A stretch of DNA of 64,000 nt from a virus. A model generated the notes under the pieces. It ran no database searches. It worked only from the letters and a program-made list of their open reading frames with translations, and was not told the DNA's origin. Position 1 is the stretch's first letter. Each line of letters opens with the position of its first letter. The translations under genes and the position numbers were made by a program. Shown here one piece after another: positions 13,541-58,131 of this stretch. Where the stretch lies: positions 1-64,000 of the IMG/VR virus record IMGVR_UViG_3300020469_000023. One strand, 5' to 3'.

Positions 13541-14641
13541 TTAACCTCTTATTATCATGTCACCATAAGTTGGTATTTGTGGTTTAATTAAATCTTCTGG
13601 TATTTCTGTATAAATCAACTCTTCTTTATATACTGATTTTAAATCAAGTGCTTTTTGATTAAACTCTACTAGATTTTTAAGTGCATCTTCTGTAATAAAC
13701 GACATTAAAGTATCTCTCATACCATCGCCTTCGTCACCAATTACCCAATCGTAGTCACCTACCTTTTGCATAATTCTGTTTGTTGATTCAGGATTATTTG
13801 TCATTCTTCTTAATGCTTCGATAAGTTTATCTTTATTAGGATTACCAGCATTTACCCATAATGCTTTTTGCAAACCATCACGAAATGATTTTGTTAGTTT
13901 ATATGCATCATAGAATTCACCTTCTGGTGCTTTACCATATTTCTGTTCATAGAGTAATTCAAACTGAACATTTGGATAGTTGATATCATCTTCATGAAAA
14001 CCTAAGTCATTTAGTATACCATGAGTAAACCAAACTTCTGCTCCAGCAAATGATTCAACGTGTTTCTTGTATGCCGCTGGATTTTCTCTTGTAACGTTTA
14101 ACTCACCTCTTTTAAATGCAAGTCTACGTTCATTACCTTTCATGCCTTTAACCCAAGTCACATTGTCTCTAAAACAATCAATTGCTTGTTCAGTATCTTT
14201 AACACTTGGTTCACCACAAATTAACATACTCATTGCCATTGCCTCAGGTACTTGACCAGAACCAAATGCAAATTTTATTTTATCGTTGTTGTCTTTCAAT
14301 CTACCAACAATAATGTTTAGATTCATCAACCCAATTGATTCGTAGTCAGCATAATTATACTCGACATTCTCTTGTAGAAAAGACACACCATTACCACCAT
14401 GTGATACCATAATAGTTTTGTCATCGAATCTTAAGTTGTTATGAAACTTATTAAATCCACCAATACCTCTTGCACTCGGTATGTGAACTAATCTAATTTT
14501 TTCATCTAATTGTTTTTCAAGTTCTTTTGCAACAATAGATGCCCAGACAGATGTACCACCACCTACTTTTTGTGGTATCACCATTGTGTAATCTGCGAAT
14601 ACTGGTGCAGATACGAGCATTAATATTAAAAGTTTTTTCAT
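13541..14641 (-). CDS. tctC: TctC-family solute-binding protein (TTT transporter)
   Basis: 366 residues. A clear signal peptide (MKKLLILMLVSAPVFA, cleavage near residue 16) leads into YTMVIPQKVGGGTSVWASIVAKEL, the diagnostic start of the TctC/Bug family. A periplasmic-binding fold continues to the end. It should bind a carboxylate or related small organic acid and hand it to TctA, whose gene overlaps its start by four bases. Unusual cargo for a phage; SAR11-type hosts rely on many such transporters. Confidence 0.88.
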   Translation of the reverse strand: MKKLLILMLVSAPVFADYTMVIPQKVGGGTSVWASIVAKELEKQLDEKIRLVHIPSARGIGGFNKFHNNLRFDDKTIMVSHGGNGVSFLQENVEYNYADYESIGLMNLNIIVGRLKDNNDKIKFAFGSGQVPEAMAMSMLICGEPSVKDTEQAIDCFRDNVTWVKGMKGNERRLAFKRGELNVTRENPAAYKKHVESFAGAEVWFTHGILNDLGFHEDDINYPNVQFELLYEQKYGKAPEGEFYDAYKLTKSFRDGLQKALWVNAGNPNKDKLIEALRRMTNNPESTNRIMQKVGDYDWVIGDEGDGMRDTLMSFITEDALKNLVEFNQKALDLKSVYKEELIYTEIPEDLIKPQIPTYGDMIIRG

Positions 14642-16080
14642 GTATACTCCATAATTGTTTTCTTATTTAGACCATATATAAGTACTGCCACTATTATAGT
14701 ACAAAGTATTATGAATAGTGGTCGTGTTATTAATGTATCTAAATTATATAACGTTGTCATTTGAATAGTTAATCCTTCAATTCTATCACTTAATATAAAC
14801 CCAATTAATAATGCGGGTCTACTAAATTTTCCATATTTACATATCAATCCAATAATACTCATGATTGCAAGTACTACGTAATCTTCCCAACCACCAGTAT
14901 ATTGAACTGCTGTCCATATTACTAATGCAGTAAGAGGTATTGCATAGTACACAAATGGTACTTTTGTAATCCTCGCAATCTGTTTATTACAAGATAAACA
15001 AATAAAACAGACGAGTATTGTAGCACAAAGAAATCCAAATGTCAAGTGAAAAATAAACTTTTCGTCTTCTAATAAGTCTGGTGTACCTAATTCAAAGTTT
15101 AGATAAGCGAATAATGCCATAAGCATTGCGGCATACTTCGCACCGGGTATACCAAATAACATTGTTGTTATCATTGATGTTGCTTTTTGAGAATTGTTTG
15201 CACCTTCAGGACCAATCACTCCTTTAATGTTACCTTTACCAAATGGGATTCTTTCGTTAGGGTTAGTTGCAACTGTCTGACCATATGCAATCCAATCTGC
15301 AATTGTACCACCAAGACCTGGTAATAAACCAATAACTGCACCAATAAATCCACCTCTAAGTGACAACCAACGATTTTTCCAGACTTCTATAAATGCTTCT
15401 TTTGTTTGTCCTGTTGTGTGTCCGAAAGTATAGTCTGTAAGTGCTTTGTTTCTCAACCCTGCAATAATTTCTGGTATTGCAAATAGACCAACTGCAACAG
15501 GTACAATTTGTACACTATCAGCGAGATAGTACCAACCAAAAGTAAATCTATCAGATGCATCATATGGATTAATACCAATCATGCCTAGAAAAATACCAAA
15601 TGCAAGTGCAATTAAACCACGTACCCACCATTTACTTGATATGAAAACAACAAAAGTAAATGCAAGAAGTGTAAATGCCCATAACTCTGGTATGCCCATA
15701 TATAAGACAATGTTTTTATAATATGGTATAAGTAAGAATGTTAAACAACCCCATATAAGTCCATTTACTGTTGATGAAATAATTGCAGACGATAATGCCA
15801 GATTTGCTTTACCTTGACGTGCAAGAGGATATCCATCAAGCATTGTTGTTGCGGCCGAGTTAGCACCAGGAATATTTAATAACACACTAGCATATGAATC
15901 ACCTGTTGTCGATGCGGCAACTAATGCCATGCAGAATAGTACTGCTAGATACGGGTCAGGAAAGAAATGTAAAAACGAAAATGTAATTACGAGACCAGTT
16001 GTAGCACCAGCAGTTGGAATTATACCTATTAGTAAACCATAGAACGTGCCTAATAATAGTACTGTAATTATCTCTAACAT
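14638..16080 (-). CDS. tctA: TctA-family large membrane subunit (TTT transporter)
   Basis: 480 residues with about ten to twelve hydrophobic segments. Family signatures include GLLIGIIPTAGATTG near the start, LLNIPGANSAATTMLDGYPL, and the second half copy GAVIGLLPGLGGTIADW followed by GPEGANNSQKA. The length is close to the normal 500. It would couple substrate import to the proton or sodium gradient. TctC follows in the operon, but no standard four-helix TctB is present in this window. Confidence 0.92.
   Translation of the reverse strand: MLEIITVLLLGTFYGLLIGIIPTAGATTGLVITFSFLHFFPDPYLAVLFCMALVAASTTGDSYASVLLNIPGANSAATTMLDGYPLARQGKANLALSSAIISSTVNGLIWGCLTFLLIPYYKNIVLYMGIPELWAFTLLAFTFVVFISSKWWVRGLIALAFGIFLGMIGINPYDASDRFTFGWYYLADSVQIVPVAVGLFAIPEIIAGLRNKALTDYTFGHTTGQTKEAFIEVWKNRWLSLRGGFIGAVIGLLPGLGGTIADWIAYGQTVATNPNERIPFGKGNIKGVIGPEGANNSQKATSMITTMLFGIPGAKYAAMLMALFAYLNFELGTPDLLEDEKFIFHLTFGFLCATILVCFICLSCNKQIARITKVPFVYYAIPLTALVIWTAVQYTGGWEDYVVLAIMSIIGLICKYGKFSRPALLIGFILSDRIEGLTIQMTTLYNLDTLITRPLFIILCTIIVAVLIYGLNKKTIMEYT
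15017..15045 (-). promoter_or_regulatory. Candidate internal early promoter upstream of tctC
   Basis: Minus-strand TTGACA (15040-15045), 17 bp, TACAAT (15017-15022), one mismatch in the -10 box, inside tctA about 380 bp upstream of tctC. It could raise expression of the binding protein above the membrane subunit. Confidence 0.4.
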
Positions 16081-34637: not shown

Positions 34638-34943
34638 TTAATTGTCAACTTTTGCACTTGCTCTCCACTGATAACATGACCAATATCGTGCTTTCCATTT
34701 AGGACCAGGATTGTCGCAATTGTGTCTTGCTCGAAAAGATGCTCGTCTTCCTGGGTCATCACGTTTAATTTCCATATTCGGGTCACCGAAACCTACTTTC
34801 ACAACATTACCTTTCTCGTTCTTAACGTAGACATAGAACTTTTTCTTGCCATCGCTAGACCTAGTTGGGTTATTTAATGTAACTTTTCTACCTTGATACT
34901 CTGCGGCCTCTTGTAGTAAGTCTTCACAATTACATTTCTTCAT
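34638..34943 (-). CDS. Conserved phage protein with FGDPNMEIKRDDP domain
   Basis: 101 residues. The block VKVGFGDPNMEIKRDDPGRR and the downstream ARHNCDNPGPKWKARYWSC match a domain I recall from many T4-like phages, alone or joined to larger head proteins. Four conserved-looking Cys suggest metal binding. Probably a late structural or head-assembly protein; function unknown. A GATAAATA box ends five bases before the ATG. Confidence 0.75.
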   Translation of the reverse strand: MKKCNCEDLLQEAAEYQGRKVTLNNPTRSSDGKKKFYVYVKNEKGNVVKVGFGDPNMEIKRDDPGRRASFRARHNCDNPGPKWKARYWSCYQWRASAKVDN

Positions 34944-40105: not shown

Positions 40106-40113
40106 TATTTATT
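40106..40113 (-). promoter_or_regulatory. Late-promoter-like box (one mismatch)
   Basis: AATAAATA on the minus strand, six bases upstream of the GTG start at 40099 and overlapping the end of the preceding gene. Confidence 0.4.
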
Positions 40114-40447
40114 TAGTTTTTACGTACAGTCTATTTTTTGCTTGTTTTGTATTATCAAATGACATACCATACATTTTACCTATTCTATTGAGTTGTATGA
40201 CTCTTTGATTGCTAGGCATGTTCATTAATTGTTTTTGCATTGTACCAAATAGTTTTTTCATTGCATCTATTTCAGTAGTAACCATTTGTCCTTCTTCTAC
40301 ATTTTCACCACGAGCATTCTTAAAATCTTGGGCCGAAGGTGCGCCTTTCTCACCAGGTTTTCTCATCTTCTTACCACTTTTTCGTTTCTTATGGATATTG
40401 GCCCATAAAGACTCGTTTGAAGAAGCGAATTGTTTAAATGATTTCAT
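40109..40447 (-). CDS. Basic capsid-interior candidate protein
   Basis: 112 residues. It begins MKSFKQFASSNES, the targeting-like start shared by several neighbours and similar to T4 internal proteins (MKTYQEF..E). The block LWANIHKKRKSGKKMRKPGEK is strongly basic, for DNA contact. EIDAMKKLFGTMQKQL is echoed inside the 903-residue protein encoded next to it (EVDAMKKLSKDMQKVL). The first Met overlaps the neighbour's stop. Confidence 0.7.
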   Translation of the reverse strand: MKSFKQFASSNESLWANIHKKRKSGKKMRKPGEKGAPSAQDFKNARGENVEEGQMVTTEIDAMKKLFGTMQKQLMNMPSNQRVIQLNRIGKMYGMSFDNTKQAKNRLYVKTK

Positions 40448-43155
40448 TTTCCGAGTAGTCTTTTTAGACCTTGAACTGTCATTTTCTTATCGTTCATTGC
40501 AGTTTGAACTTTAAGTCTGTCTTGTGGTTTACGAATTGCATCAAACTTTTTCATCATCATCTTAGCATCTGCTGGTTTCAACATTACTTTTTTACCATTT
40601 CGTAATTCTATTTGTGCAGGTCTTTGTAAATCTGTAACTTTTCTTATTTGCATAACAACATTTTTATCTGCGGCCTTTCTGTCATCTTTAGTTGCAACAC
40701 CGTAACCATCATCGTCTTTATCTTTACGTTTACCCATATCTCTCATTGCATCTGCTTTTGCACGAGACATAGATTCTGTATTTATTGCCTTTTCTAAATC
40801 ATCTGCCTGTTTTGCATGAGTCTTAGAACCACCTCTTAACTTCTTAACTAAGTCTTTGACAAATGGTTTGTCTTTGGCATCTAATGCTTCTGACTTAGGT
40901 TTCTCATGAGTATAACCCATTTTACCAAACTTCATATGGTCAGCATATGTATTTGCCATGACTTCTTTATCACCCTTATACATTTTATGTGGTTTAAAGT
41001 CTTTCTCATCTGCACATTCATTCTTAGGTTTCTCACCTCGTTCTTTCTTAGAGATTGCAATTGCGGCCTGTTGTGCGGGAGATACTGCTTCTATTTTATA
41101 TTTTTTACCATAATTAGTCATAAGTGTTTTTAATGCTTTTAAATCTCTTTTGTCATAGGCATTTCCCAAAGCAAGATAAAGTGTAGAATCAATTTGTCCT
41201 TTTGGTTTAACAATCTTAGCAATTTTTTCTTGTTCTGCTTTACCCAATCTAGGGAATCTTTCTTTAACTCTTTGTAATATTGCTTTTTGGTTAGGTGATA
41301 CTGCTTCTTTTTGCATTAACATTTTAGTATTAAGAGTTCCAATCATTTTAAGGATTGAGTCTCTTGCATCTAAAACTTTTTTATAGTCTTTGTTATGTCT
41401 TGTATCTTTTAATTCTTTATCACCTATAGTTGCAATCTTTTGATAAGTTTGTAAAACCTTTTGCATGTCTTTGGAGAGTTTTTTCATTGCATCTACTTCT
41501 TGTCTTGTGACTTCTTGTAAATCAGTTGACTCTTTTCTTGATTTACCAGCAACTTTCATTGTAAGATTAACAAGTCCTGGTAATTTAAGTGTGTCCATTC
41601 TTTTCTTGTTCTGTGAATTAACTTTGTCATATACAGATGCTATCATACTTGCAGTTGTTAAGTCAAGTTGCATACCGTCTATTTTCATCATAGATTTTTT
41701 CTTAACTACTTGACGAACCTTCTTCATAGTTGCAGACTCTTCGTTAAGTGGTGTACCTGATTTATAACCTTCGTATATCAAACTGAATATTAATCCATTA
41801 CTTGCTTGTAAAATAACTTCATAAACATCGTCCCTAATTGCAGTATCTAAATCTGCAAACAAGTTTAATTCTTTAGGGTCTCTCATTATCTTTTTACCCT
41901 TTTTAGTAATAGTCATTCCTTTTGAGATTACATCAATTATCTTCTTAATTTTTGGGGCGTCCATTTCATCTCTCGGTTCACCTTTACCAAAAGCGGCGCC
42001 TTTCTTAGCGGCACCTCTTCTATCTTGGTTCATTATTCTTGCAAGTGACCTAACAATAAGAGAAGTATTCGGGTCTTTTATTTTATGTTTACCGTCTTTC
42101 TTTTTCTGAAGCATGTCCATGACATCATCATGTTCCATTGCTGGACCCGATGCTCTAGATTTTTTGAATTTGGTTCTAATTTTTCGTTCAAGACCGTCTT
42201 GGCCTGGTTTTAGTGCAAATTGTTTTTCTAACAAGTCAAGTTGTTCTTCAAGAGAGTTTAGTTGTGCAAGTACATCTTCTGTTGCAGTATCTTTAGTTCT
42301 TTGTATTTCGTCTTTCTCTTGTTCTGCTTCTCTTTTATGTTTTGCTTTTAAGTCTGCCATTTCTTTTGCTCTTTCAACTGCATCTTCAATTAAAGACGGG
42401 TCTCCATAAGATGATTTACCTCTTGCCACTGCATCAAAGTCTCTTAACTGTTTCTTATTGCCACTCATAGTTACAAGAGTATCATTACCTTTTTTCTTAA
42501 ATGCTACTTTCAACTTCATTAACTTTGCAGATGAATTAAACTTGTCCATTTCAGGTTTTTGTATACCTTTAACTCGGTAAGTCATCGTATTTTCATTTAT
42601 CGATTCTTTCATAGCAGGTAGTTCACCCATTTTAATCGCCATTCTTGAGAAACCTTTTGGATTTTGTTTCTGCATTGACTGTAAAACTTTAACACTAGTC
42701 ATGTTCATAAGATTTGCAATACCGTCTATCTCTTTTCTATTTCTAGTTTTGAATAGTTTACCCAACTTATCTTCCATAGACTCTTCAAGGTCTTTTCTTT
42801 TTAAAACTTTAGTTTTCTTTACTTTACCAAGTGGTATACCATCTGGCATTGCAACAGAAGTTGTGCTTGTCATATCTTCGTTTGCAGTTTTAAGTGCTTG
42901 TTGAACAACAGGCATCTTTGAAAGACCTCTTTTAAGTTTTTCTATTTCTTTACTTGCGAGAGTATAATTACCACCTAAATCAAGTGCAAGTTCAATTGCT
43001 TTCTTAACTGTCTTGTCTTTAGCGGCCATTTTTGCTTTAGGATTATCTTTATAATACTTTGCAACTTCTTGACCCGTAAGTTTAGACTTACCCATTTTAG
43101 ATAATGGGTCTAACTTACCACCTTTAACTCTTTCAGATATGTCTCTGAACTTCAT
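40444..43155 (-). CDS. 903-residue Lys-rich internal-head polyprotein candidate
   Basis: Very basic and almost wholly helical. Recurring blocks suggest a string of modules: EAVSPNQKAI and EAVSPAQQAA, EVDAMKKLSKDMQ, and several E-[AS] junctions in short disordered linkers (for example DLEESMEDKL, LNEESATMKK). T4-like prohead proteases cut internal head proteins after Glu in such contexts, so this may be processed into several DNA-bound peptides in the capsid. No enzyme motif is visible. AGGAG lies upstream of the ATG. Confidence 0.65.
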   Translation of the reverse strand: MKFRDISERVKGGKLDPLSKMGKSKLTGQEVAKYYKDNPKAKMAAKDKTVKKAIELALDLGGNYTLASKEIEKLKRGLSKMPVVQQALKTANEDMTSTTSVAMPDGIPLGKVKKTKVLKRKDLEESMEDKLGKLFKTRNRKEIDGIANLMNMTSVKVLQSMQKQNPKGFSRMAIKMGELPAMKESINENTMTYRVKGIQKPEMDKFNSSAKLMKLKVAFKKKGNDTLVTMSGNKKQLRDFDAVARGKSSYGDPSLIEDAVERAKEMADLKAKHKREAEQEKDEIQRTKDTATEDVLAQLNSLEEQLDLLEKQFALKPGQDGLERKIRTKFKKSRASGPAMEHDDVMDMLQKKKDGKHKIKDPNTSLIVRSLARIMNQDRRGAAKKGAAFGKGEPRDEMDAPKIKKIIDVISKGMTITKKGKKIMRDPKELNLFADLDTAIRDDVYEVILQASNGLIFSLIYEGYKSGTPLNEESATMKKVRQVVKKKSMMKIDGMQLDLTTASMIASVYDKVNSQNKKRMDTLKLPGLVNLTMKVAGKSRKESTDLQEVTRQEVDAMKKLSKDMQKVLQTYQKIATIGDKELKDTRHNKDYKKVLDARDSILKMIGTLNTKMLMQKEAVSPNQKAILQRVKERFPRLGKAEQEKIAKIVKPKGQIDSTLYLALGNAYDKRDLKALKTLMTNYGKKYKIEAVSPAQQAAIAISKKERGEKPKNECADEKDFKPHKMYKGDKEVMANTYADHMKFGKMGYTHEKPKSEALDAKDKPFVKDLVKKLRGGSKTHAKQADDLEKAINTESMSRAKADAMRDMGKRKDKDDDGYGVATKDDRKAADKNVVMQIRKVTDLQRPAQIELRNGKKVMLKPADAKMMMKKFDAIRKPQDRLKVQTAMNDKKMTVQGLKRLLGK

Positions 43156-43163
43156 TGATACTC

Positions 43164-43430
43164 CTATCTAAATGCTACTGAAACTCCAAGAACTGCCGCG
43201 TTTGCCGCAAATATCTCGTCTGTCTTACCTTTTCTTACGTATATCTCTTGATTACCAGCAAGTGTAAAAGTTCCTATTGCCACTCCAGCAGAAGTTTCAA
43301 CTGTAACTAATCTTGCAGTACCACCACTATTAATAAGGCGAACTAATCCTGCTTTACCAAAATTACTACCATTAGTAGTCGATGTACCACATGCGGCCTC
43401 TGTTCCTAATACTTGAATATATCTTGCCAT
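43164..43430 (-). CDS. Small beta-rich structural protein
   Basis: 88 residues. MARYIQVLGTEAACGTSTTNG followed by alternating hydrophobic strands and Gly/Ala (ARLVTVETSAGVAIGTFTLAG) matches a marine T4-like phage family I remember, likely a decoration or virion protein. AGGAGAAAAAC precedes the ATG. Confidence 0.7.
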   Translation of the reverse strand: MARYIQVLGTEAACGTSTTNGSNFGKAGLVRLINSGGTARLVTVETSAGVAIGTFTLAGNQEIYVRKGKTDEIFAANAAVLGVSVAFR

Positions 43431-43439
43431 GTTTTTCTC

Positions 43440-43685
43440 CTAACCTAAATCTTGGTCGTGATTTAATTTAATACCTTTCTTTTTCTTAGTAATGAAGGCA
43501 TTAACTCTTGCCATACCCCATTGTGCTGGAGTTGTCCCTGGTCTATGACCAGTTCTCCATGCGGCAACACCTCTATCGAATACTTTTTTTAAAGTTTTAA
43601 ATGCAAATCCAGACTTTGATGCCTTGTTTTGAAGACCTTTAGTCGAACTTTCTTCTATTTCTGCATATTCTTTAAAAGATATCAT
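43440..43685 (-). CDS. DUF5824-like capsid-interior protein
   Basis: 81 residues from MISFKEYAEIEESS, which fits the shared targeting start; the long upstream frame is the shadow of the neighbour gene. The rest (KTLKKVFDRGVAAWRTGHRP followed by TTPAQWGMARVNAFITK) is the DUF5824 domain found in phage proteins. TATAAATA ends five bases upstream of the chosen ATG. Confidence 0.75.
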   Translation of the reverse strand: MISFKEYAEIEESSTKGLQNKASKSGFAFKTLKKVFDRGVAAWRTGHRPGTTPAQWGMARVNAFITKKKKGIKLNHDQDLG

Positions 43686-43690
43686 GTTTC

Positions 43691-43698
43691 TATTTATA
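43691..43698 (-). promoter_or_regulatory. T4-type late promoter box abutting a start codon
   Basis: Exact TATAAATA on the minus strand, five bases from the ATG at 43685. It falls in the short gap before the nucleotidyltransferase stop, so it is not explained by coding constraint. Confidence 0.6.
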
Positions 43699-43701
43699 CT
43701 A

Positions 43702-44940
43702 TTAGTCATCGCCAAACATTTGTTTGTATGATTTCGTATGTTTACTAAGTTTTGTTCCTTTCTTTCTTGCCTTTTTGTCTCCAGGTGCATCTTTGTATGC
43801 AGATGGATTATCATCGTCCATCTTACCATGTTTAGCAAAATGTGATGCTCTAGAACTTTTCGTTTTCTTTGCTACACCTTTATAGTAAACAGATGGTTGC
43901 GAACCTTCTTTATCTTTGACATCTTTATCTTGAGCAACTCTTGCCTTTTCTTTTTCCATGATAGTCGCAACGTCATCAACAATTTTTTCTGCAACACGTT
44001 TAGCAGTAGCAGTAGCAATTGCCATTTTTTTACTCATGTCCATTTTAGGGTTATCTTTTTCAATTGCTTTTGCTATCTCTTCTCTTTTCTTAAGTTCTGC
44101 TGGTGTTAGTTTCTTTTCAACAAGTTCTATTGCATCTAACCATTTACGTACTTTCTTTTTATCACTTGTTTCAATAATAACATAATTAGAACCTAATACT
44201 GTAATAACACCAACTTCTTCTGATTCTTTGATAACAACAGTATCGCCTATTTCATAAAGACTACCTTTGATGTAGTTCTCTCGAAGTTCGTTTAATTTAC
44301 CAAGGTCAACATGACGTTTGAACTTTTTCTCTTCTTTAAGTCCCATGCCTTTACGAACATCATTAAATAACTTACGAGTATCTTTATCATTCATTGTGCT
44401 TGGTACACCTTGAGAGAATGCAGTATAATCATTTTGTTGAGCATTTGCTCTTTGTTTTGATGCAGACATACCAGCAACTCCTTCAGCATCTGGGTCACGT
44501 TCACCTGCAGACAATACATTAATTGATTCAAAGTTGTAGAAACCATGTCTACCTTTGACACCATTATACTTTTTCAATAGTGTGTCAAACTCTCTAACTC
44601 TATCAGAACCAACAATCATATTTACTTTACGATATCCTTGGTCATATAGTTCTGTTACAGCATCAAAGGCAGTTCTTATCTTTTTATTAATGATAATACT
44701 TCTACCATGTTTTGGAAACATTTTTCGCATATGTTTGATTTTATCTGAGTAAGATAGTGGGTCTTTCTTTGGATTAGATACTTGTGAAGTAAAAACTTTA
44801 TAGTCATTTCTACCAGATTTCTTTGCTAAATTTTCAAGTACTTTACCATGTCCAATAGTAGGTGGATTCATTCTACCAAACGTGAAGAATACCTCTCTTT
44901 CTGCTTCAATTAAATATTGTGAAAAGTTTTTGATTGCCAT
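43702..44940 (-). CDS. Nucleotidyltransferase with capsid-targeting-like N-terminus
   Basis: 412 residues. The first dozen residues (MAIKNFSQYLIEAER) fit a cleavable targeting peptide. Then FFTFGRMNPPTIGHGKVL gives the HxGH-type motif (here HGK after G) of the NMN/cytidylyltransferase superfamily. VNMIVGSDRVREFDTLL and ISKQR-like SASKQRANA complete the core (about 15-190). A KOW-like segment and a basic C-terminal tail follow. Substrate (NMN, phosphopantetheine or a sugar phosphate) is not determined. An enzyme carried within the head is inferred. Confidence 0.8.
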   Translation of the reverse strand: MAIKNFSQYLIEAEREVFFTFGRMNPPTIGHGKVLENLAKKSGRNDYKVFTSQVSNPKKDPLSYSDKIKHMRKMFPKHGRSIIINKKIRTAFDAVTELYDQGYRKVNMIVGSDRVREFDTLLKKYNGVKGRHGFYNFESINVLSAGERDPDAEGVAGMSASKQRANAQQNDYTAFSQGVPSTMNDKDTRKLFNDVRKGMGLKEEKKFKRHVDLGKLNELRENYIKGSLYEIGDTVVIKESEEVGVITVLGSNYVIIETSDKKKVRKWLDAIELVEKKLTPAELKKREEIAKAIEKDNPKMDMSKKMAIATATAKRVAEKIVDDVATIMEKEKARVAQDKDVKDKEGSQPSVYYKGVAKKTKSSRASHFAKHGKMDDDNPSAYKDAPGDKKARKKGTKLSKHTKSYKQMFGDD

Positions 44941-44946
44941 GATATA

Positions 44947-45309
44947 TTACTTATCTTCTTTAGATTTCTTTTTCTTTGCTAACTCATCTTTCCTTACTTG
45001 TGGTAAAATCTTTACAGCAAACTTTTTAATCTTATTTTTCATTTTGTCAAGTTTTTTCTCAATCTCATTTCTTCGAGCAAGAGATACTTGTTGAGGTGCT
45101 TGACCTTTAGTTATTTTCTTAAAGAACTTTAGACGTGCTTTTTTCAATGCACGTTTCTTTAGTTTCTCAGGTGATGCTATTTTACGGGCCGCTTTCTTTC
45201 GACCCATTGCGATTTTTGCCTTGATTTTTTTGAATTGACGAGACCTCTTCAACCTTTGTTGAACTGTCATTGCTTCGTCTGTAGTTGTGAACTCTTTAAA
45301 TGATTTCAT
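44947..45309 (-). CDS. Very basic capsid-interior protein
   Basis: 120 residues. Starts MKSFKEFTTTDEA, matching the targeting signature with a possible cut before Ala. The remainder is Lys/Arg-rich (MTVQQRLKRSRQFKKIKAK and RKKAARKIASPEKLKKR), consistent with a packaged DNA-binding protein. It recalls a block found in other marine T4-like phages. Confidence 0.7.
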   Translation of the reverse strand: MKSFKEFTTTDEAMTVQQRLKRSRQFKKIKAKIAMGRKKAARKIASPEKLKKRALKKARLKFFKKITKGQAPQQVSLARRNEIEKKLDKMKNKIKKFAVKILPQVRKDELAKKKKSKEDK

Positions 45310-45310
45310 T

Positions 45311-47557
45311 TTACCTCGGTTTATCCCATCCTTTCAATATATTAGCAGAAAAGTTATTATAAGAAAATTCTAATCTATCAACTAACTTAACTGCACCACC
45401 ACCTAACTTATCAATAGCAACATATCCTTCTGCACCTGTTGTTTTATAACCATTTCTTGTTTTTACAAATGCATCTATATTGCTAATGTTGTTTAATCTA
45501 TTTATAAGTTTTAGTTTTGCGAGAACTATATTCTTCTGTAAATCAAACATATTGACAAGCGAAACTCTATTTTGTGGTGAAAAGAACTTTAAAATTGTGT
45601 CTAATTTATCTTGTTGTGTTTGTTTTCCTTTTGCAGTTTTACGTTTGTCCATTTCTTTTTTATATTTATTCTCAATCCAACGTATCAATCTTGCAGTATG
45701 TTTCTTACTGTCTGGTAACATTTGCCCTGCTCTAACAAAAGTATTATTGTATTGTTCGATTAATTGTGCAAGTTCTGGATTCTTTTCTAGTTCTCGAAGT
45801 GTATCACCAGCGACTTTGTTAAAAAGAAAACCAGCAGTACTTAAATAACCTGTAACTTCTGTTGTTTCTTTTTCATTCATTGTTGCCTCACCAGCGCCAC
45901 TTAGTTCTGCATCTTGCGACCAAACTGCTGGAGAAGATGGTATCTTTTTCACACCATACGATGCTTTCATTGATGCAAAGTCTTTACCTTTATATGTTGT
46001 ATGCCAAACTATACCAATCTGTGACTTAGTAATACGTTTGGCCGCTTCTGTACCTGATTCAACTGCATAGACAATTGTGTTTGGGTGAAATGTAATATAC
46101 TGCTTACCATCTATTTTAGTTTTACTTAAGTCTTGTTTTGAGTATAAGAAGTCTCCTTGTATGACATCTTTAATACCAAGATTCTTTAAATGCTTCAATG
46201 CAAGTTTTAGTTTCTCTGCTAAATCGCCTGAAGTATCAGCATCAATATCAGCATTTGATTTATATACTTTTGGATTCTTAGCAAAGATACCTTTCTTAGC
46301 AACAAAGAACTTACCATCACTTGGGTCTTCACCACAGAAGATTGCTGGTGCACCATCCCACTTAACTGACATCTTAGTTGATGATTTACCTGCTAACATA
46401 TCACGTATACTTCTCAAGGCATTGATTGCCTCTCTTGTACCTTTGACTCCACCATACAAAACTTTATCTTCTATATGTGTCATGTGTGTATTCTTTTCTT
46501 CTGGTAAGAAAAGACTTTTGTAAGATTCTGTCTGAAATGGTGTCAACTTACGATACTTTTTATTGTTCTTCGGGTGATATTCCATGTAGTCTTCGTTTCT
46601 TTCTTTAGTTTTCTTTTTCATCTTATTAATATATGTACGATAGATTGCCGCTTCTGCAGATTTACCCATTTCTTTTGCACGTTGTTCCATAGCAACTGCC
46701 GCTTGGATTTTGTGTGCATGTTTTTTACCAGAGTTTTCTATCTTCTTAACACTTGCTCTTGCAGTTTCAACGTCTTTAAATCCTAATCCATGTATTGTAC
46801 CTTTAGGGTTTTCATCTGTATATAAATCAGAATGTTTTTTAGAGTTAGCGGGTTGACCTTTCTTTCTAGGTATTCTAGGGTTTGTCTCTTCTTTCTGAGT
46901 CTTTATCCACTTTTGTGCAATTGGATTCATAGGTTTCTTGTCTGCAAATTGTTTTATTATTCTAAATGCTCTAGTTGTTTCTTTATTATAGTCTTTTCCA
47001 TCTGAGTTGTCAACTATTGTCAATCTACTTTTAAATGCTCTTTGATATTTACCAACGTTTCTTTGAACATTGTCCCACATCTTTGCAACTTCTTTCGGGT
47101 CTAGTTTTCTTGCTCTTTCCATATTTCTACGTAAAGCAGTTTCTTTATCTGTGTTGACAAATATCATTGCAGTAGAATAACCTAATTCTTTTAGTTTTTC
47201 ATTCTGTCTAATTATTTTATCTGCATCACGCCCTGTACCATCAATGACTAAACCAAGTCTGCCTTTCATATACATCATTTGTTGTTTTGCAGTCAACTCT
47301 TTTGCTTTAGTTCTTATATCTTGACCACCAACAGAAAAAATATTATCAGGGTTCATTTCTAGACCTGCTTGATTCATTGCACGTTCAAATGCAGTATCAG
47401 AATTTACAACTTTAAAACCTAAAGATGTAAGTCCTGTTTTACCAACAATAAATGATTTACCACTACCTGGTCCACCAGCAAGAAAGATTGCTTTGAAGAT
47501 TGCAGGGTCATTAACACCTTCTTCAACTTCTGCTATGTGTTCATTAAAACTTAACAT
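45311..47557 (-). CDS. P-loop kinase fused to ligase-like nucleotidyltransferase (DUF6321/DUF6267-like)
   Basis: 748 residues. A targeting-like start (MLSFNEHIAEVEEG) is followed by a kinase domain (Walker A GGPGSGKS 28-35, LVIDGTGR near 103-110) of the PNK/zeta type. A linker domain (about 225-315; HSDLYTDENPKGTIHGLG) resembles DUF6321. The C-terminal half has SVKWDGAPAIF with the K-x-D-G of covalent nucleotidyltransferases at 399-402. A later EGYV (near 710) and VKLVDR could be motifs IV and V. Together these suggest a nucleic-acid end-healing and sealing enzyme. The ligase assignment is my reading of the motifs, not a known annotation. Confidence 0.7.
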   Translation of the reverse strand: MLSFNEHIAEVEEGVNDPAIFKAIFLAGGPGSGKSFIVGKTGLTSLGFKVVNSDTAFERAMNQAGLEMNPDNIFSVGGQDIRTKAKELTAKQQMMYMKGRLGLVIDGTGRDADKIIRQNEKLKELGYSTAMIFVNTDKETALRRNMERARKLDPKEVAKMWDNVQRNVGKYQRAFKSRLTIVDNSDGKDYNKETTRAFRIIKQFADKKPMNPIAQKWIKTQKEETNPRIPRKKGQPANSKKHSDLYTDENPKGTIHGLGFKDVETARASVKKIENSGKKHAHKIQAAVAMEQRAKEMGKSAEAAIYRTYINKMKKKTKERNEDYMEYHPKNNKKYRKLTPFQTESYKSLFLPEEKNTHMTHIEDKVLYGGVKGTREAINALRSIRDMLAGKSSTKMSVKWDGAPAIFCGEDPSDGKFFVAKKGIFAKNPKVYKSNADIDADTSGDLAEKLKLALKHLKNLGIKDVIQGDFLYSKQDLSKTKIDGKQYITFHPNTIVYAVESGTEAAKRITKSQIGIVWHTTYKGKDFASMKASYGVKKIPSSPAVWSQDAELSGAGEATMNEKETTEVTGYLSTAGFLFNKVAGDTLRELEKNPELAQLIEQYNNTFVRAGQMLPDSKKHTARLIRWIENKYKKEMDKRKTAKGKQTQQDKLDTILKFFSPQNRVSLVNMFDLQKNIVLAKLKLINRLNNISNIDAFVKTRNGYKTTGAEGYVAIDKLGGGAVKLVDRLEFSYNNFSANILKGWDKPR
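46985..47013 (-). promoter_or_regulatory. Internal sigma70-like promoter
   Basis: Minus-strand TTGACA (47008-47013), 17 bp, TATAAT (46985-46990), both perfect, inside the kinase-domain coding sequence. Its purpose in a late gene is unclear; it may be fortuitous. Confidence 0.4.
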
Positions 47558-48644
47558 TTCTTTTTACTCTAATATCTGGTATCGCACCAAGAAAAGATGT
47601 AAGTTGTCTCAAACCTTTTTTAAAAAAGTTTGTAACTTTACTCCATGTTTTACTTACAAATGATTTAACTTTATTTAATATGTTAAATTCAACTAATGTT
47701 TCTTTTTCATTTGTATCTAATTCTTCTGTCATAGAGTCTACTATTAATGAAATTACTGACCAGAAAAAATATTCTCCAGTTCCACCTTTTTCATTAGTCG
47801 GAGATACAAGTTCTTTTTTAGTTCGTTGTGATGTTTTAAACCTTGTTTGAAGTTTCATTGCAGTTGCTATTTTTTCACAATAACTATCATCATTAACATC
47901 ATGAATTTCTACTTTTCCACCGTCAGCAGTAGAGACCAACATTAAGTCTGCAGATGCTGGACTACTTTTACCAAATTTTTCATAACCTGACATTGCTTCT
48001 CTGGCAAATTCTATTTTAAATTCTTTAGACTGATTAAATAAATTACCAAGTTCTTTCATACAATCTTTGTGTGCTTTTTCCGCGGCATTAACTACTTTGT
48101 TTGTACCCGCTTTAATTAAAGGTCTAATTTTTGAAGGTGCTAATGTATTTTTTACAAAACCTTCTAATACTTGATTTGTTTTTTTATATTGTGGACTTTT
48201 TACTAAATCTGAATTAGAATTTTTAACTGCCGCTTGAAACGTTGCAGTTGATTCTGCTTTACCGCCAGACATTAGTTGTGCTAAACCTATTTTAACTGAA
48301 AAGTTTTTATCACCTATTTTTACATCTGTTTTTGGTGTAGTATCAGAAGCATCATATGATTTCCAAAAATCTGTTAAACTAGATTTTGTTCTACCAAATA
48401 CTTCTGCTTTTTTATTTTTTAGTTGTGGGTAATCTTTTAGTATTTTTGTTGCAATTAATTCACCTGTTTTTTTGGCACTTGGAGTATTTTCTATTTTATC
48501 GTAAAGTTGTTGTTTAATACCATAATCTTCTGTAGATTCCATTACTCTTTTAGTTACAGTATAAAAACCCATAACTATTGCCGCTTCATAATCTTCTGCT
48601 TTTAATTTTGCTTCTGTCAAAAAATTATTTTTAAATGAATGCAT
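47544..48644 (-). CDS. Capsid-interior candidate, possible PD-(D/E)XK-like nuclease
   Basis: 366 residues. The start MHSFKNNFLTEAK fits the targeting signature (cut possible at TE/A). A central stretch FGRTKSSLTDFW, then TPKTDVKIGDKNFSVKIG, has the D-(x)n-K spacing of a PD-(D/E)XK active site, although the Glu/Gln before the last Lys is missing. The C-terminal 60 residues are amphipathic and basic (VSKTWSKVTNFFKKGLRQL), possibly membrane- or DNA-binding. Nuclease function is tentative. It overlaps the kinase-ligase gene by 14 bases. Confidence 0.6.
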   Translation of the reverse strand: MHSFKNNFLTEAKLKAEDYEAAIVMGFYTVTKRVMESTEDYGIKQQLYDKIENTPSAKKTGELIATKILKDYPQLKNKKAEVFGRTKSSLTDFWKSYDASDTTPKTDVKIGDKNFSVKIGLAQLMSGGKAESTATFQAAVKNSNSDLVKSPQYKKTNQVLEGFVKNTLAPSKIRPLIKAGTNKVVNAAEKAHKDCMKELGNLFNQSKEFKIEFAREAMSGYEKFGKSSPASADLMLVSTADGGKVEIHDVNDDSYCEKIATAMKLQTRFKTSQRTKKELVSPTNEKGGTGEYFFWSVISLIVDSMTEELDTNEKETLVEFNILNKVKSFVSKTWSKVTNFFKKGLRQLTSFLGAIPDIRVKRNVKF

Positions 48645-53672: not shown

Positions 53673-54001
53673 TGAACAGCAGTAATATTAATCAAATTGT
53701 TTTGATTATTGATGAGGTTGGTTATCCAGTTTTAATGGCAATCGGTATGGGATATTTTATCTGGTATGTTTGGAAGTATGTGACGAAAGAACTAAAACCA
53801 AAAATTGGTGCTTCACATAAGACTCTTATTAAATTATTAGACCAGATTAGAATGCTTGACAATGACTTGATACGATTACAACAGAAAGTAAATACTGTAA
53901 TCGAATATAGAAAACAAGAAGAATTAAAAAAACAAGGGCAAGAAGATGAAGACAGCACAGTATATATTAATGATATGGGTAAGTCTAACGATAACAAGTA
54001 A
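53672..54001 (+). CDS. Small membrane/coiled-coil protein B of the curli-like operon
   Basis: 109 residues. A membrane helix (EVGYPVLMAIGMGYFIWYVWKYV) begins near residue 15. A coiled coil (KLLDQIRMLDNDLIRLQQK) and an acidic/Lys tail follow. Its start overlaps the stop of its paralogue by one base and its end overlaps csgF by 56 bases. The duplicate with matching layout suggests a hetero-oligomer. Confidence 0.65.
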   Translation: MNSSNINQIVLIIDEVGYPVLMAIGMGYFIWYVWKYVTKELKPKIGASHKTLIKLLDQIRMLDNDLIRLQQKVNTVIEYRKQEELKKQGQEDEDSTVYINDMGKSNDNK

Positions 54002-54428
54002 TTTGTTTGCTGACCAGATAGTTCATAAATTTAAATCTCCATCATTTAGTGGTATTGGACAATCGTCACACTATTTAACAATAGAGAATCAACAGAAGTC
54101 TCGTAGAGATAAGATTCAAGAAGATATCGAATCTGCAATTGCAAAAGCAGAACGTGAAGCAGATAGTACGACCCATGCTAAGTTCCTTAGAAACTTAGAG
54201 TCAAGAATCTATGCTCAAATATCAAAACAATTAGTTGACCAAATGTTTGGTGATGGAGTAAATGAAGGTTCAATAGAAGGTTTCTTTGATATGCTTGGTA
54301 ATACTGTAGCATACGAATTATGTACAGGTTGTGGTGATGATGGTATTGATGTAATTAGAATTACAATTACAGGCGATGATAATACAACAACAACATTAGA
54401 TGTACCAGTAGGTAGTGGAGCATTTTAG
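53946..54428 (+). CDS. csgF: CsgF-like curli assembly factor
   Basis: 160 residues. Signal peptide (MKTAQYILMIWVSLTITSNLFA, cleavage near 22). The mature start IVHKFKSPSFSGIGQSSHYL matches the CsgF N-terminus (F-x-x-P-x-F-G-G), the part that inserts into the CsgG pore. A helical middle and beta-strand end (VIRITITGDDNTTTTLDV) also follow CsgF. An insertion with two Cys (ELCTGCGDDG) is unlike E. coli CsgF. It is directly followed by csgG (TAGTG overlap), so the pore and its extracellular cap are coupled. Confidence 0.82.
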   Translation: MKTAQYILMIWVSLTITSNLFADQIVHKFKSPSFSGIGQSSHYLTIENQQKSRRDKIQEDIESAIAKAEREADSTTHAKFLRNLESRIYAQISKQLVDQMFGDGVNEGSIEGFFDMLGNTVAYELCTGCGDDGIDVIRITITGDDNTTTTLDVPVGSGAF

Positions 54429-55300
54429 TGAAAATATTTTTATTGATAGGAGTATTCGTTCTATCAAGTTGTGCTAGTATTCCTTCTTTCTCACGTATAG
54501 ATTGTGATGAAAGAGAATTAGCATGTCGAGAAAGTGCAACTATAGAAAAGTTGCCATCGACAGCAGAATTAAAAAAAGTGCCAGGTCCAAGTAATGGTAA
54601 ACCTGTAGTAGTTGCAGTTTATGGATTTACAGACAAAACTGGCCAAAGAAAAAGTAGAGATACATTTTCAGATTTTTCTACTGCAGTAACACAAGGTGCA
54701 GATTTACTTGTTATTGATGCACTTAAAACTGCAAGTAATGGAGAGTGGTTTAGAGTAGTTGAGAGAACTAATATAGATGCTCTCATAAGAGAAAGGCAAA
54801 TAATAAGAAGTTCTAGAGAAGAGTTTAAAGAAGATAAACAACTAGCATCTTTAGTATTTGCAGGGATTTTAATTGATGGTGGTGTTGTTGGGTACGACAC
54901 TAACATCGAAAGTGGTGGTCGTGGAGCAAGATACTTAGGTATCGGACACAATACATCATATAGAAGAGATTCAGTAATTGTTAGTCTAAGGGCAACCTCA
55001 ACACTAACAGGTGAAATTTTAATGAATGTTCAGGCGAAAAAAACTATTTTGTCTGTCGGTGGCGGTTATGATTTATTCCGATTCTTTGATATGGATACAA
55101 AGTTATTGGAATTTGAAGATGGTAACGGATTTAACGAAAGTGTAACGTTTGCAGTTCGCTCCGCTATTGAAGTTGCCGTATTAGAACTTATTTACCAAGG
55201 ACACGATAGAGGTTTTTGGAAAATGAAAAGTGACCATCGTCACCCACACTTAAGTGATGGGACTAACGATAAACACTTAATAACTAAGGAGAAAGAATGA
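54428..55300 (+). CDS. csgG: CsgG-like outer-membrane secretion lipoprotein
   Basis: 290 residues with a GTG start overlapping the csgF stop. Lipobox LSSC (Cys15) gives an outer-membrane lipoprotein. KPVVVAVYGFTDKTGQRKS and WFRVVERTNIDALIRERQII are CsgG signatures. Then LIDGGVVGYDTNIESGGRGARYLG spans the first transmembrane hairpin and VSLRATSTLTGEILMNVQ the second. Family role: nonameric diffusion pore that exports curli subunits across the outer membrane. A His-rich C-terminal extension is present. Confidence 0.93.
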   Translation: MKIFLLIGVFVLSSCASIPSFSRIDCDERELACRESATIEKLPSTAELKKVPGPSNGKPVVVAVYGFTDKTGQRKSRDTFSDFSTAVTQGADLLVIDALKTASNGEWFRVVERTNIDALIRERQIIRSSREEFKEDKQLASLVFAGILIDGGVVGYDTNIESGGRGARYLGIGHNTSYRRDSVIVSLRATSTLTGEILMNVQAKKTILSVGGGYDLFRFFDMDTKLLEFEDGNGFNESVTFAVRSAIEVAVLELIYQGHDRGFWKMKSDHRHPHLSDGTNDKHLITKEKE

Positions 55301-56214
55301 GAACTTTAATTCTCGCTTTATTATTAACAGCAAGTGCTTTTGCATTTGCGGATAATGAAATATATATCGAGCAAGTTGGTGAAGGTGTAGAAATTATTAT
55401 TGAACAAACAGGTAATGGAAACTTGATTGGGCAAAATACTAGCACTGGTGCTAATGCGACCGACATGAAACTGCAGATAGGTAACTCTAATGCATATTGG
55501 TTGTTTAATGGAAGTAACAACTTACTATTTGGTGATATCAACTCAGATGGTTCAAACATTGACTATAATGTTCAAGGTTCGAACAACAGAATCAATCAAT
55601 TGATTGGTACTGTAACTGGTAATACTAGTAGTAATCAAAGTGCAGATGCCATTGATATGAATGTAGATGTTCAAGGTGATTATAACCAGACAACGTTTAG
55701 GTTAGGTAATAAATCTGAAACTTACAATACACCTCATAATTTAGGTGATGGTGCATTTTTTAACAATAGTGCAGGTTTTAAAACGTATAGCAATCATACA
55801 TTTACAGGTAGTAACATCACGGGTTATGGAACTTATGGTGGTAATGCTACAAGTAACTATGGGTCAAATGCCGCATATTGGGATGCCTGGAATATTACAG
55901 AAGGTAGTGCTGATGGTGCCAACATTGACTTATTAGTTGATGGCAGTGGTGCTTCAAATACTATTGGTGCATTTATAAACTCTTCAAATGCTGTTTGGGA
56001 TTGGGACATAACTGGTTCAAATAACTGGATATTAACAACTCAAGAAGATGGAAGTGATAATAAAATATCTGTTGATTTAACAGGTGATAAAAACTATGTA
56101 TTTGTTGGTCAAAGAACAGGTACAAGTATAAGTGGTGCAGAGGCGATATTAGATGCAAGTTTTGTTACAGACGGTTCAGAAATTACGATTATTCAACAAG
56201 ATACTGGCGAGTAA
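55297..56214 (+). CDS. Curlin-repeat secreted protein 1 (CsgA/CsgB-like)
   Basis: 305 residues, about twice CsgA. Signal peptide ends AFAFA/DN at residue 18. The mature start NEIYIEQVGEGVEIIIEQTG has the Q-x-G spacing of curlin repeats. Further Asn/Gly/Ser-rich strands repeat with motifs like GSNNRINQLIG, GDYNQTTFRLGN and GDKNYVFVGQ, and the end is VTDGSEITIIQQD. Likely a beta-solenoid or amyloid substrate of CsgG/CsgF. It is non-canonical: repeats are irregular and long loops contain Trp and Tyr. AAGGAGAAAG precedes the ATG. Confidence 0.8.
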   Translation: MRTLILALLLTASAFAFADNEIYIEQVGEGVEIIIEQTGNGNLIGQNTSTGANATDMKLQIGNSNAYWLFNGSNNLLFGDINSDGSNIDYNVQGSNNRINQLIGTVTGNTSSNQSADAIDMNVDVQGDYNQTTFRLGNKSETYNTPHNLGDGAFFNNSAGFKTYSNHTFTGSNITGYGTYGGNATSNYGSNAAYWDAWNITEGSADGANIDLLVDGSGASNTIGAFINSSNAVWDWDITGSNNWILTTQEDGSDNKISVDLTGDKNYVFVGQRTGTSISGAEAILDASFVTDGSEITIIQQDTGE

Positions 56215-57304
56215 TCTTATTCTAATAGGGTCTGTTTATGCAGACTCTATTGGCGATATTCGTGAGCATACTGGTAGTGCGGCAATCGAAAGAGAATCTG
56301 GTGAAGAACTAGTTGTCTCTCCTGCTTTTTTACCTGATGTTGAAATGAATGATACTGCTATTACTGGTAATGGCAGAATGTTAATTGAATTCAAAGATAA
56401 AGAAGAATTAGCATTGACTGAACACACAAAGATTTATATTGATGAAGTATATTATGACCCTGACCCATCGCTGTCAAAGATGACTATGCGAATGGCACTT
56501 GGTACTGCTAGATTTACATCTGGTAGAGGTGAAATGATTGACAAAGCAAACATTGACATTTCAACACCAACTGCTCAGATAGGTATTCGGGGAACAGATT
56601 TTACAACTACAGTTGATGAACTCGGTAGAACGTTAGTTGTATTATTACCTGATGAAAATGGAGAATCATCTGGTGAAATATTTATTACAAATGCTGGTGG
56701 GACAATTACATTGAATGAAGCATATCAATCTATGATGCTTCAATCATTTGATGTAATGCCACAAAGAACAGTTATTCTTGAAGGCATTACGCCCGATTCA
56801 ATTAATAATATGTTTATTGTTAATCCACCAAAAGAGATAAAAGAAGTAGAAGCAGAAGGAGAAAGTAAAGAAGACGATGCTCAAGGTATTTTAGATGTAG
56901 ACTTCTTGGCATACGATGCCTTAGAAGAAGATGCTTTAGAAGATAAAGGAGAATTAGAATATACAGAACTAGATATTGACTTATTAGATGTTGAGTTTCT
57001 TCAAGACGTATTAGACATTACTGCTGACCTCGATAGAATAAATGAGATTGATAGAGAGGTTGCAGATATAGGTAATGTTAACATTGAAGGTACTCAAGTA
57101 GGGTTTGATGATGATAGTCAATATAGTACGTTTGTTAATAAAGAAGAAGAGACGATTGTTATGACTAGAGAAGTAGAAGGTGTAATTAGAATAACTCATG
57201 CGATTTATACAAATGCAGTTATTGAAACATACACTAACCAAAAACCAAGCGAGATAACTTTAGGAGATGGTTCAGATGCAAGAATCATAATAATACAAGA
57301 ATGA
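56153..57304 (+). CDS. FecR-domain periplasmic protein
   Basis: 383 residues. Signal sequence to about residue 30 (GSVYA/DS). The FecR domain is at about 34-185: ALTEHTKIYIDEV, MRMALGTARFTSGRG, and TAQIGIRGTDFTTTVDELG, the last a hallmark block. A long acidic segment (225-330, Glu/Asp-rich) and a beta-rich end follow. In bacteria FecR domains relay outer-membrane signals; stand-alone secreted FecR proteins often neighbour CHASE2 cyclases, from memory. The gene overlaps curlin 1 by 62 bases, a tight coupling. Confidence 0.88.
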   Translation: MQVLLQTVQKLRLFNKILASNLILIGSVYADSIGDIREHTGSAAIERESGEELVVSPAFLPDVEMNDTAITGNGRMLIEFKDKEELALTEHTKIYIDEVYYDPDPSLSKMTMRMALGTARFTSGRGEMIDKANIDISTPTAQIGIRGTDFTTTVDELGRTLVVLLPDENGESSGEIFITNAGGTITLNEAYQSMMLQSFDVMPQRTVILEGITPDSINNMFIVNPPKEIKEVEAEGESKEDDAQGILDVDFLAYDALEEDALEDKGELEYTELDIDLLDVEFLQDVLDITADLDRINEIDREVADIGNVNIEGTQVGFDDDSQYSTFVNKEEETIVMTREVEGVIRITHAIYTNAVIETYTNQKPSEITLGDGSDARIIIIQE

Positions 57305-58131
57305 TTAAATTTTTAAAAGAAAATACATCACCACAAGGTATAAAGACTATCGTAACAATGTGGATTTTATTTGCATTTGCTATTGGTGGTTGTGAATATG
57401 TATATGCTGATAATGAAGTATATATTACTCAAAGTGGTGAAGGTACAAAGTTGTTTATCGAACAAGAAGGTAAAGATAATAAAGTAGACTTCTCAATGCA
57501 ACATCAGGGTAATGAAGTAAAAATAATCCAGCATGGGCATAATAATAAAATAGCATATGGACATTGGGGTTCACTAACTAGTGGAGATATAGATGGAACG
57601 TTTAATTCATTAGACTTTGCACAAATATGTGGACGTGGTTCAAGTTGTAAAGAATCTGATATCGGTCTGCATATCTATGGAGACAATAACTCAATACGTT
57701 GGGGACAAGGATATATTTTAAGTTCTCCGACTTCAACTTGGACATGGGACGGAAGTGAAGGTGGTGGTCATCATCTAACTTTAGATGTTCATGGAGATAA
57801 TAATAATGTTGCGGGTAGTCAAAGAAACTCATCTGCAGGCATCTATAGTGAACACCAAGCAGATATCTATCTTTACTCTAATAACAATAGTGTTTTTTGG
57901 AGACAAAATACAGATGGTGTTAAAGATGTAAATTTATACACATATAATGATGGTAATAATATTACTGGTTATCAATCTGGTTATGCAACACATACTGCAA
58001 ATATATCTTTAACTGGGTCTAGTCCAACAACATTAAATTTAACTCAAGAAGGTAACTCTGCTCAATCATATTCACTATCACAAAACTGCCAAACTATGGG
58101 TGGTTGTAGCATTTCTGTTACACAACAATAA
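57301..58131 (+). CDS. Curlin-repeat secreted protein 2
   Basis: 276 residues. A longer signal segment (hydrophobic 18-35) ends YVYA/DNEVYI, so the mature start NEVYITQSGEGTKLFIEQEG is nearly the same as that of curlin 1. Repeats such as GNEVKIIQHGHNNKIAYG, GDNNSIRWGQG and GDNNNVAGSQRN show the curlin-type N-x-x-x-x-Q spacing. Two Cys pairs are present (ICGRGSSC, NCQTMGGC). An IGGC before the cleavage site could alternatively be a lipobox. ATGA overlap with the FecR gene. The two proteins may be a major/minor subunit pair like CsgA/CsgB. Confidence 0.78.
   Translation: MIKFLKENTSPQGIKTIVTMWILFAFAIGGCEYVYADNEVYITQSGEGTKLFIEQEGKDNKVDFSMQHQGNEVKIIQHGHNNKIAYGHWGSLTSGDIDGTFNSLDFAQICGRGSSCKESDIGLHIYGDNNSIRWGQGYILSSPTSTWTWDGSEGGGHHLTLDVHGDNNNVAGSQRNSSAGIYSEHQADIYLYSNNNSVFWRQNTDGVKDVNLYTYNDGNNITGYQSGYATHTANISLTGSSPTTLNLTQEGNSAQSYSLSQNCQTMGGCSISVTQQ

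Follow-up and report, generated by a model that had tools for sequence, protein, structure and literature searches.

Predicted T4-type capsid-targeting propeptides on six neighboring phage genes and a matching tag on virion enzymes of cyanophages

Introduction

The internal proteins IPI, IPII and IPIII of bacteriophage T4, as well as the propeptide of Alt, carry a short capsid-targeting sequence (CTS). This leader has 10 to 19 residues, of which residues 4 and 7 act in targeting and residues 8 and 10 in processing, and foreign proteins fused to it enter the T4 head and then the host (PMC9026906). In the T4 genome, IPII and IPIII open with MKTYQEFIAEA, in agreement with the start (MKTYQEF) that a sequence-only reading of the DNA studied here gave for T4 internal proteins, and IPI opens with MKTFKEFTSTTTPVSTITEA. 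The DNA in question is the first 64 kb (the window) of a 99,095-bp IMG/VR virus record (IMGVR_UViG_3300020469_000023), in which six neighboring genes share N-termini of this kind, called tags below. We consider it highly probable that these N-termini are T4-type capsid-targeting propeptides, acting through core binding, S77 cleavage and ejection with the DNA. The F-x-x-[FY] part of the tag would bind the prohead core (scaffold) during head assembly, and the tagged protein would thereby be incorporated. A gp21-type S77 protease would cut after the Glu of [LI]-x-E and free the mature protein inside the head, and this mature cargo would be ejected along with the DNA. The cargo would comprise three putative enzymes, namely a nuclease of HinP1I/MspI fold, a kinase-ligase resembling those of RNA repair and an NMNAT-like nucleotidyltransferase, together with two small basic proteins and one DUF5824 protein.

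T4-like phages are very abundant in the sea. Several studies have left it as a question whether metabolic enzymes of cyanophage virions are cargo or contaminants. A readable packaging tag would supply a mechanism and would predict the proteins that each phage delivers at infection.

Results

All six N-termini listed by the sequence-only reading are present and open six genes, every one on the minus strand between 40,109 and 48,644 (Table 1), with predicted leaders of 11 to 13 residues. The core that it had described, [ST/N]-F-x-x-[FYH], stands for five of them, with Tyr at the second core position in two and His in one; it does not hold for MHSFKNNFLTEA, whose core is F-x-x-x-F, the second aromatic lying one residue further on. 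Homologues of this gene with normal core spacing begin MQTFKGFLTEA and MKFKTYITEA. In the tag MAIKNFSQY, the core is displaced by one position at the start. Glu is found in all six tags, and Leu, Ile or Val stands at P3 in four (LIE, LTE, IEE, VEE), the other two having TDE and SNE. The marine tags as a group have the consensus [FY]-x-x-[FY]-[LIV]-x-E↓A (the arrow marks the cut), whose conserved positions are the CTS residues [FY]4, [FY]7, [LIV]8 and E10.

All open reading frames (ORFs) of the entire 99-kb record were ranked by the BLOSUM62 similarity of their N-termini to the T4 CTS (KTYQEFIAEA), the MISFKEY start at 43,685, internal to a longer ORF, being set by hand. The six tagged genes took ranks 1 to 6 of 149 ORFs. 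Scores of 16 or more were observed four times against 0.6 expected from shuffled N-termini (P=0.006). An excess of only about this size would suit chance similarity, or a functionless leader duplicated among neighboring genes. The single-genome excess is modest, and the comparative evidence is decisive.

The record encodes one S77 (gp21-type) protease (E 6.7e-41; 88,412-89,071, beyond the window), and such a protease was found in seven of the seven complete phages with tags. Fragmentary contigs were uninformative, with S77 found in 0/7 and 4/11 tagged contigs and in 1/9 control contigs. By alignment to T4, the gp23 maturation site reads FLTE↓A in T4, FLTE↓T in C48C1, LLTE↓A in S-CREM2 and MLFE↓A in the present phage. 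The tags FLTE↓A and YLIE↓A have sequences of this type. Both the protease gene and the capsid site support the predicted link to gp21 processing that was drawn from the sequence alone. Fourteen distinct N-termini occur among homologues of the 366-aa gene, all with Glu at P1 and Leu or Ile at P3, and this [LI]xE↓[AGQE] site lies directly before the invariant body (K)LKAEDYE. The FxxF core is present in 11 of the 14, and the spacer from core to cut ranges from 3 to 9 residues, a variation comparable to that between T4 IPI and IPIII.

The tag is modular across phages. On the same genes, C48C1 carries variants nearer to T4 (DFKNFITE, SFKQFVSE, NFSQYLLE, TFKKYLEE, KFKQYIDE), and further tags occur in Melnitz (FKTFLSE, FSKYITE) and DLP6 (FTQFLAE). 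Scanning IMG/VR with a DNA pattern for MK[ST]FxxF[ILVMF]xEA gave at least 120 tagged places, whereas the same pattern reversed, used as control, gave 16. Among 81 of the tag matches, 78 lay at an ORF start; for the control it was 3 of 16. The 78 tagged proteins fall into 28 groups whose bodies have no mutual BLASTP similarity; the largest is cytidylyltransferase-like, and the others include DUF6267, DUF5661, P-loop kinases, DUF6321, GNAT, DPBB and unknowns. Conservation of the tag across hosts and families, its occurrence on 28 unrelated bodies, the low count of the reversed control and a P1 Glu that is constant among all the 366-aa gene's homologues render chance similarity or a duplicated leader extremely improbable.

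Some further tags were noted in passing. In C48C1, the annotated start of the cytidyltransferase (L004:15001-15063) leaves out the upstream tag KNFSQYLLEEEREVYFTFGR (KNFSQYLLE), and other tags in public records may be masked by the annotated start sites. At 34638-34943 of the window lies a homologue (MKKCNCEDLLQE↓AAEYQGKKVTL) of a C48C1 protein with the intact tag MKKFKQYIDEG; the tag in the window appears degraded. Two small tagged proteins, at L057:3736-4529 (YHGTPESSADKIKKSGF) and L079:1211-1858 (AHYTSASNKENILKTGF), give an impression, and only that, of ADP-ribosyltransferase-type folds and might be analogues of T4 Alt.

In S-CREM2, 52 of 219 products were detected in purified virions (PMC10665884). 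The strict tag occurs in four of the 219 genes, and all four products are virion-detected, compared with none of the 167 undetected ones (Fisher P=0.0029). They are a SAM lyase (MKDFDSFLEE), an APH-like kinase ((GTG)KRFDAFLTE), gp136 (MQTFSMFFSE) and a cytidylyltransferase (MKNFSSFLTE↓A). Near-matches among the virion-detected products are gp13 (DLHSFLTE) and gp12, where RFASFMAE↓A lies downstream from the start as annotated. With a loose regular expression, 5 of 12 tagged products were in the virion and significance was lost (P=0.13), so the strict form alone is used as evidence. NMNAT or cytidylyltransferase proteins have been reported in the virions of S-SM1 (PMC3037559), S-SCSM1 (PMC9602691), S-SZBM1 (PMC9146016) and S-CREM2 (PMC10665884). 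Those of the first three phages carry the tags MKKFSAFLNE↓A, MKSFLQFLKE↓A and MRFRQFIIE↓A, respectively.

The authors of the S-CREM2 and S-SCSM1 studies considered lysate carry-over possible for such proteins, and in cyanophages the gene cluster adjoins replication genes. Both points would fit a tag that docks proteins in an intracellular phage complex (e.g., for replication or repair), with virion detection due to contamination of CsCl preparations. We judge this very unlikely, since four independent virion proteomes all contain NMNAT-like proteins, the strict tag is absent from the undetected S-CREM2 genes, and the [LI]xE↓A site that closes the tag is also that of the capsid protein. The tag on these virion enzymes argues for real cargo and would explain their route into the head. 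For the six proteins of the present phage, we likewise infer packaging as propeptide-bearing cargo.

As a separate observation, S-CREM2 gp12 (L033:7704-10313), published as a virion-associated Cas9, has tag-like sequences near both ends. It matched no Pfam family at E 0.01, and therefore no claim of Cas9 packaging is made.

Regarding the cargo, an AlphaFold2 model of the 366-aa protein (predicted local distance difference test, 70.7; tag disordered) was compared with known structures by VIA-align. It matched HinP1I (2fkc; Z 10.0, 195 residues, root mean square deviation 4.4) and MspI (1sa3; Z 9.5); the HinP1I/MspI alignments span 178-198 residues, and the next unrelated row had Z 3.4. Pfam and PHROG searches gave no match for this protein. 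D107, S116 and K118 are invariant in 13 homologues and are candidate catalytic residues, and the model predicts a nuclease of HinP1I/MspI fold. A nucleotidyltransferase and a kinase-ligase, both named from the sequence alone, were recovered by Pfam among the tagged genes: the former as PF01467, the latter as a P-loop kinase (AAA_33/zeta-like, residues 22-193) fused to DUF6267 (356-738). The KWDGAP nucleotidyltransferase motif of the DUF6267 part is invariant in five sequences. Model residues ~50-203, in the region of this motif, weakly matched the tRNA/RNA ligases Trl1, Rnl1 and an archaeal RNA ligase (Z 4.7-5.7), unrelated helical rows being no worse. A PDB sequence search with the ligase gave chance matches only, and an NCBIfam search gave nothing above the cut-off. 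Presence of the kinase-ligase in the virion is predicted from its tag alone.

The joint between kinase and ligase holds an internal tag remnant (Table 1) with an extra residue that is also present in MHSFKNNFLTE. A complete tag, KTFTNFITE↓Q, occupies the joint in four kinase-ligase fusions (L013, L014, L015 and L018), and the stand-alone ligase of C48C1 has an N-terminal tag, DFKNFITE↓Q, equivalent to the joint position. A cut at the joint may separate kinase from ligase; alternatively, the joint sequence could be a relic. By analogy with T4 biology, the cargo could reasonably be read as acting at entry in RNA repair, in the metabolism of NAD or nucleotides and in DNA attack or defence.

Two of the six proteins are small and strongly basic, and T4 core proteins are likewise cut by gp21 and remain as internal peptides. 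The tag could thus direct proteins to the prohead core as scaffold or internal packing (gp67/gp68-like or basic condensing proteins) rather than for delivery as working enzymes. Enzyme folds or domains in three of the six, intact conserved active-site motifs such as KWDGAP, and tagged cargo elsewhere that includes a SAM lyase, a GNAT acetyltransferase and many NMNATs make such a packing role unlikely. Delivery of processed cargo with the DNA is the reading that we prefer.

A possible common dock on the scaffold was also considered. The C-terminus of gp21 ends in F-x-x-F-[LIM] in most phages examined (gp21 genes including L205-L212; for example, REFKNFLSLIKS), with the ends EFKNFLSL (present phage and C48C1), FAKFLSK, FEKFMRK, FENFISK, FNDFLNS and FEAFLKS; it deviates in T4, S-CREM2, G011 and G014. 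T4 Alt is cleaved at both ends (PMC9026906). In S-CREM2, a C-terminal core occurs only in gp12 and gp154, both N-terminally tagged too, and the count of C-terminal FxxF[LIM] is not above chance (2 observed, 1.5 expected). The shared ends suggest, on small counts, that the FxxF core may be a general scaffold-binding signal. We hold more tentatively, at somewhat less than even credence, that marine T4-like phages use F-x-x-F-[LIM] generally as a core-docking signal, which can stand at the N- or the C-terminus of a protein and is shared by the maturation protease at its C-terminus. The injected enzyme set would then be directly readable from the genome and, here, an NMNAT, a nuclease of restriction type and a kinase-ligase for RNA repair would be delivered before phage gene expression. 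A tag-like C-terminal end, RTFKEFLEYIE (KKKRTFKEFLEYIE), was also seen in S-SCSM1 gp279 (L034:11627-11836), a small virion protein.

In the same gene cluster, the N-terminus of the 903-aa charged protein falls outside the top-ranked set in similarity to the T4 CTS, and its membership in the tagged set is uncertain. Elsewhere in the window, phage genes for the curli secretion parts CsgF and CsgG (53946-55300) are followed by curlin-repeat-like proteins (55297-58131) that Pfam does not call curlin. At 13541-16080 lies a gene for the tripartite tricarboxylate transporter protein TctA (E 6e-92), next to one for a secreted protein that is solute-binding-like.

Table 1. Tagged genes, predicted tags and related features of the window (arrow, predicted cut)
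Feature	Position	Strand	Product or remark
Gene MKSFKQFASSNES	40109-40447	-	112-aa basic protein; phrog_16028, function unassigned
Tag MKSFKQFASSNE↓S	40412-40447	-	Tag of 112-aa basic protein
Gene, same cluster	40444-43155	-	903-aa charged protein; N-terminus MKFRDISE↓RVKGGK weakly tag-like; homologues MNFEDLRERVKGGK
Gene MISFKEYAEIEES (MISFKEY)	43440-43685	-	81-aa DUF5824 protein; PF19141, E 4e-17
Tag MISFKEYAEIEE↓S	43650-43685	-	Tag of 81-aa DUF5824 protein; C48C1 homologue MITFKKYLEEK
Gene MAIKNFSQYLIEA	43702-44940	-	412-aa cytidylyltransferase/NMNAT-like nucleotidyltransferase; PF01467, phrog_395/3041
Tag MAIKNFSQYLIE↓A	44905-44940	-	Tag of 412-aa nucleotidyltransferase; top match of the genome to T4 CTS
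Gene MKSFKEFTTTDEA	44947-45309	-	120-aa protein, strongly basic; C48C1 homologue starts MLSFKQFVSEV
Tag MKSFKEFTTTDE↓A	45274-45309	-	Tag of 120-aa basic protein; resembles T4 IPI start MKTFKEFTSTTT
Gene MLSFNEHIAEVEEG	45311-47557	-	748-aa kinase-ligase
Internal tag remnant SYKSLFLPE↓E	46499-46525	-	Kinase/ligase joint
Tag MLSFNEHIAEVEE↓G	47519-47557	-	Tag of 748-aa kinase-ligase; variants in relatives MLSFSQHITEIEEG, MISFAEHIKEIDEG, MISFLEHIAEVEEG
Gene MHSFKNNFLTEA	47544-48644	-	366-aa protein, predicted HinP1I/MspI-type (PD-(D/E)xK fold) nuclease
Tag MHSFKNNFLTE↓A	48612-48644	-	Tag of 366-aa protein; predicted cleavage after E11

Discussion

Several observations weigh against the propeptide interpretation. 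In close relatives of the 366-aa gene, the N-terminus is just MQLLTE↓A or MQPLLE↓A, without FxxF, and two of the six tags (TTDE↓A and SSNE↓S) lack the Leu or Ile at P3 that is usual for gp21 sites. Several stand-alone ligases are untagged, and so are the ligase and cytidyltransferase homologues of P-HM2, so the tag system is not universal. The virion evidence comes from other phages and concerns mainly the nucleotidyltransferase, the S-CREM2 test is based on four genes, and the possible carry-over of such proteins was raised by the authors of two of the proteomes. Furthermore, many virion proteins of S-CREM2 and S-SCSM1 are untagged; consequently, virion association does not in general require the tag.

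The mechanism is already known from T4. What appears to be unreported is its reach across Kyanoviridae and marine T4-like phages, along with the list of cargo and the likely explanation of cyanophage virion enzymes; in the open-access literature covered, nothing except a T4 history joined capsid targeting with cyanophages. The 28 families obtained from one scan are candidate host-takeover or counter-defence factors.

Compared with known systems, the likeness to T4 internal proteins claimed from the sequence alone is upheld at several levels. As with the T4 CTS, the tags are short leaders with aromatics at positions 4 and 7 and a predicted [LI]xE↓A-type site (hydrophobic at P3 in four of the six), they stand on unrelated proteins, gp21/S77 is encoded, the capsid site is of the same type, and tagged orthologues are virion-borne; T4 IPI (MKTFKEFTSTTT) is close to MKSFKEFTTTDEA of the present phage. 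Unlike the T4 CTS, the marine tags occur in Kyanoviridae and unclassified marine T4-like phages, have NMNAT-like enzymes as their commonest cargo, and appear also inside a protein, where two domains are fused, and as C-terminal copies; their processing is predicted. The ejection proteins of SPN3US and phiKZ-like giant phages similarly have N-terminal propeptides that a gp21-related protease removes by cutting after Glu, but these mostly exceed 100 residues, have the motif A-x-E and lack the FxxF core. The kinase-ligase joins a kinase to a putative nucleotidyltransferase ligase, like T4 Pnkp plus RNA ligase 1 and fungal Trl1, with a weak fold match of the DUF6267 core; it differs from them in domain order and sequence, and its RNA-repair activity is putative. 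T4 Pnkp and RNA ligase 1 are not known to be head cargo. Finally, the virion NMNAT/cytidylyltransferases of S-SM1, S-SCSM1, S-CREM2 and S-SZBM1, published without a packaging mechanism and suspected by some authors of being carry-over, are homologous to the enzyme of the present phage and bear the same N-terminal tag.

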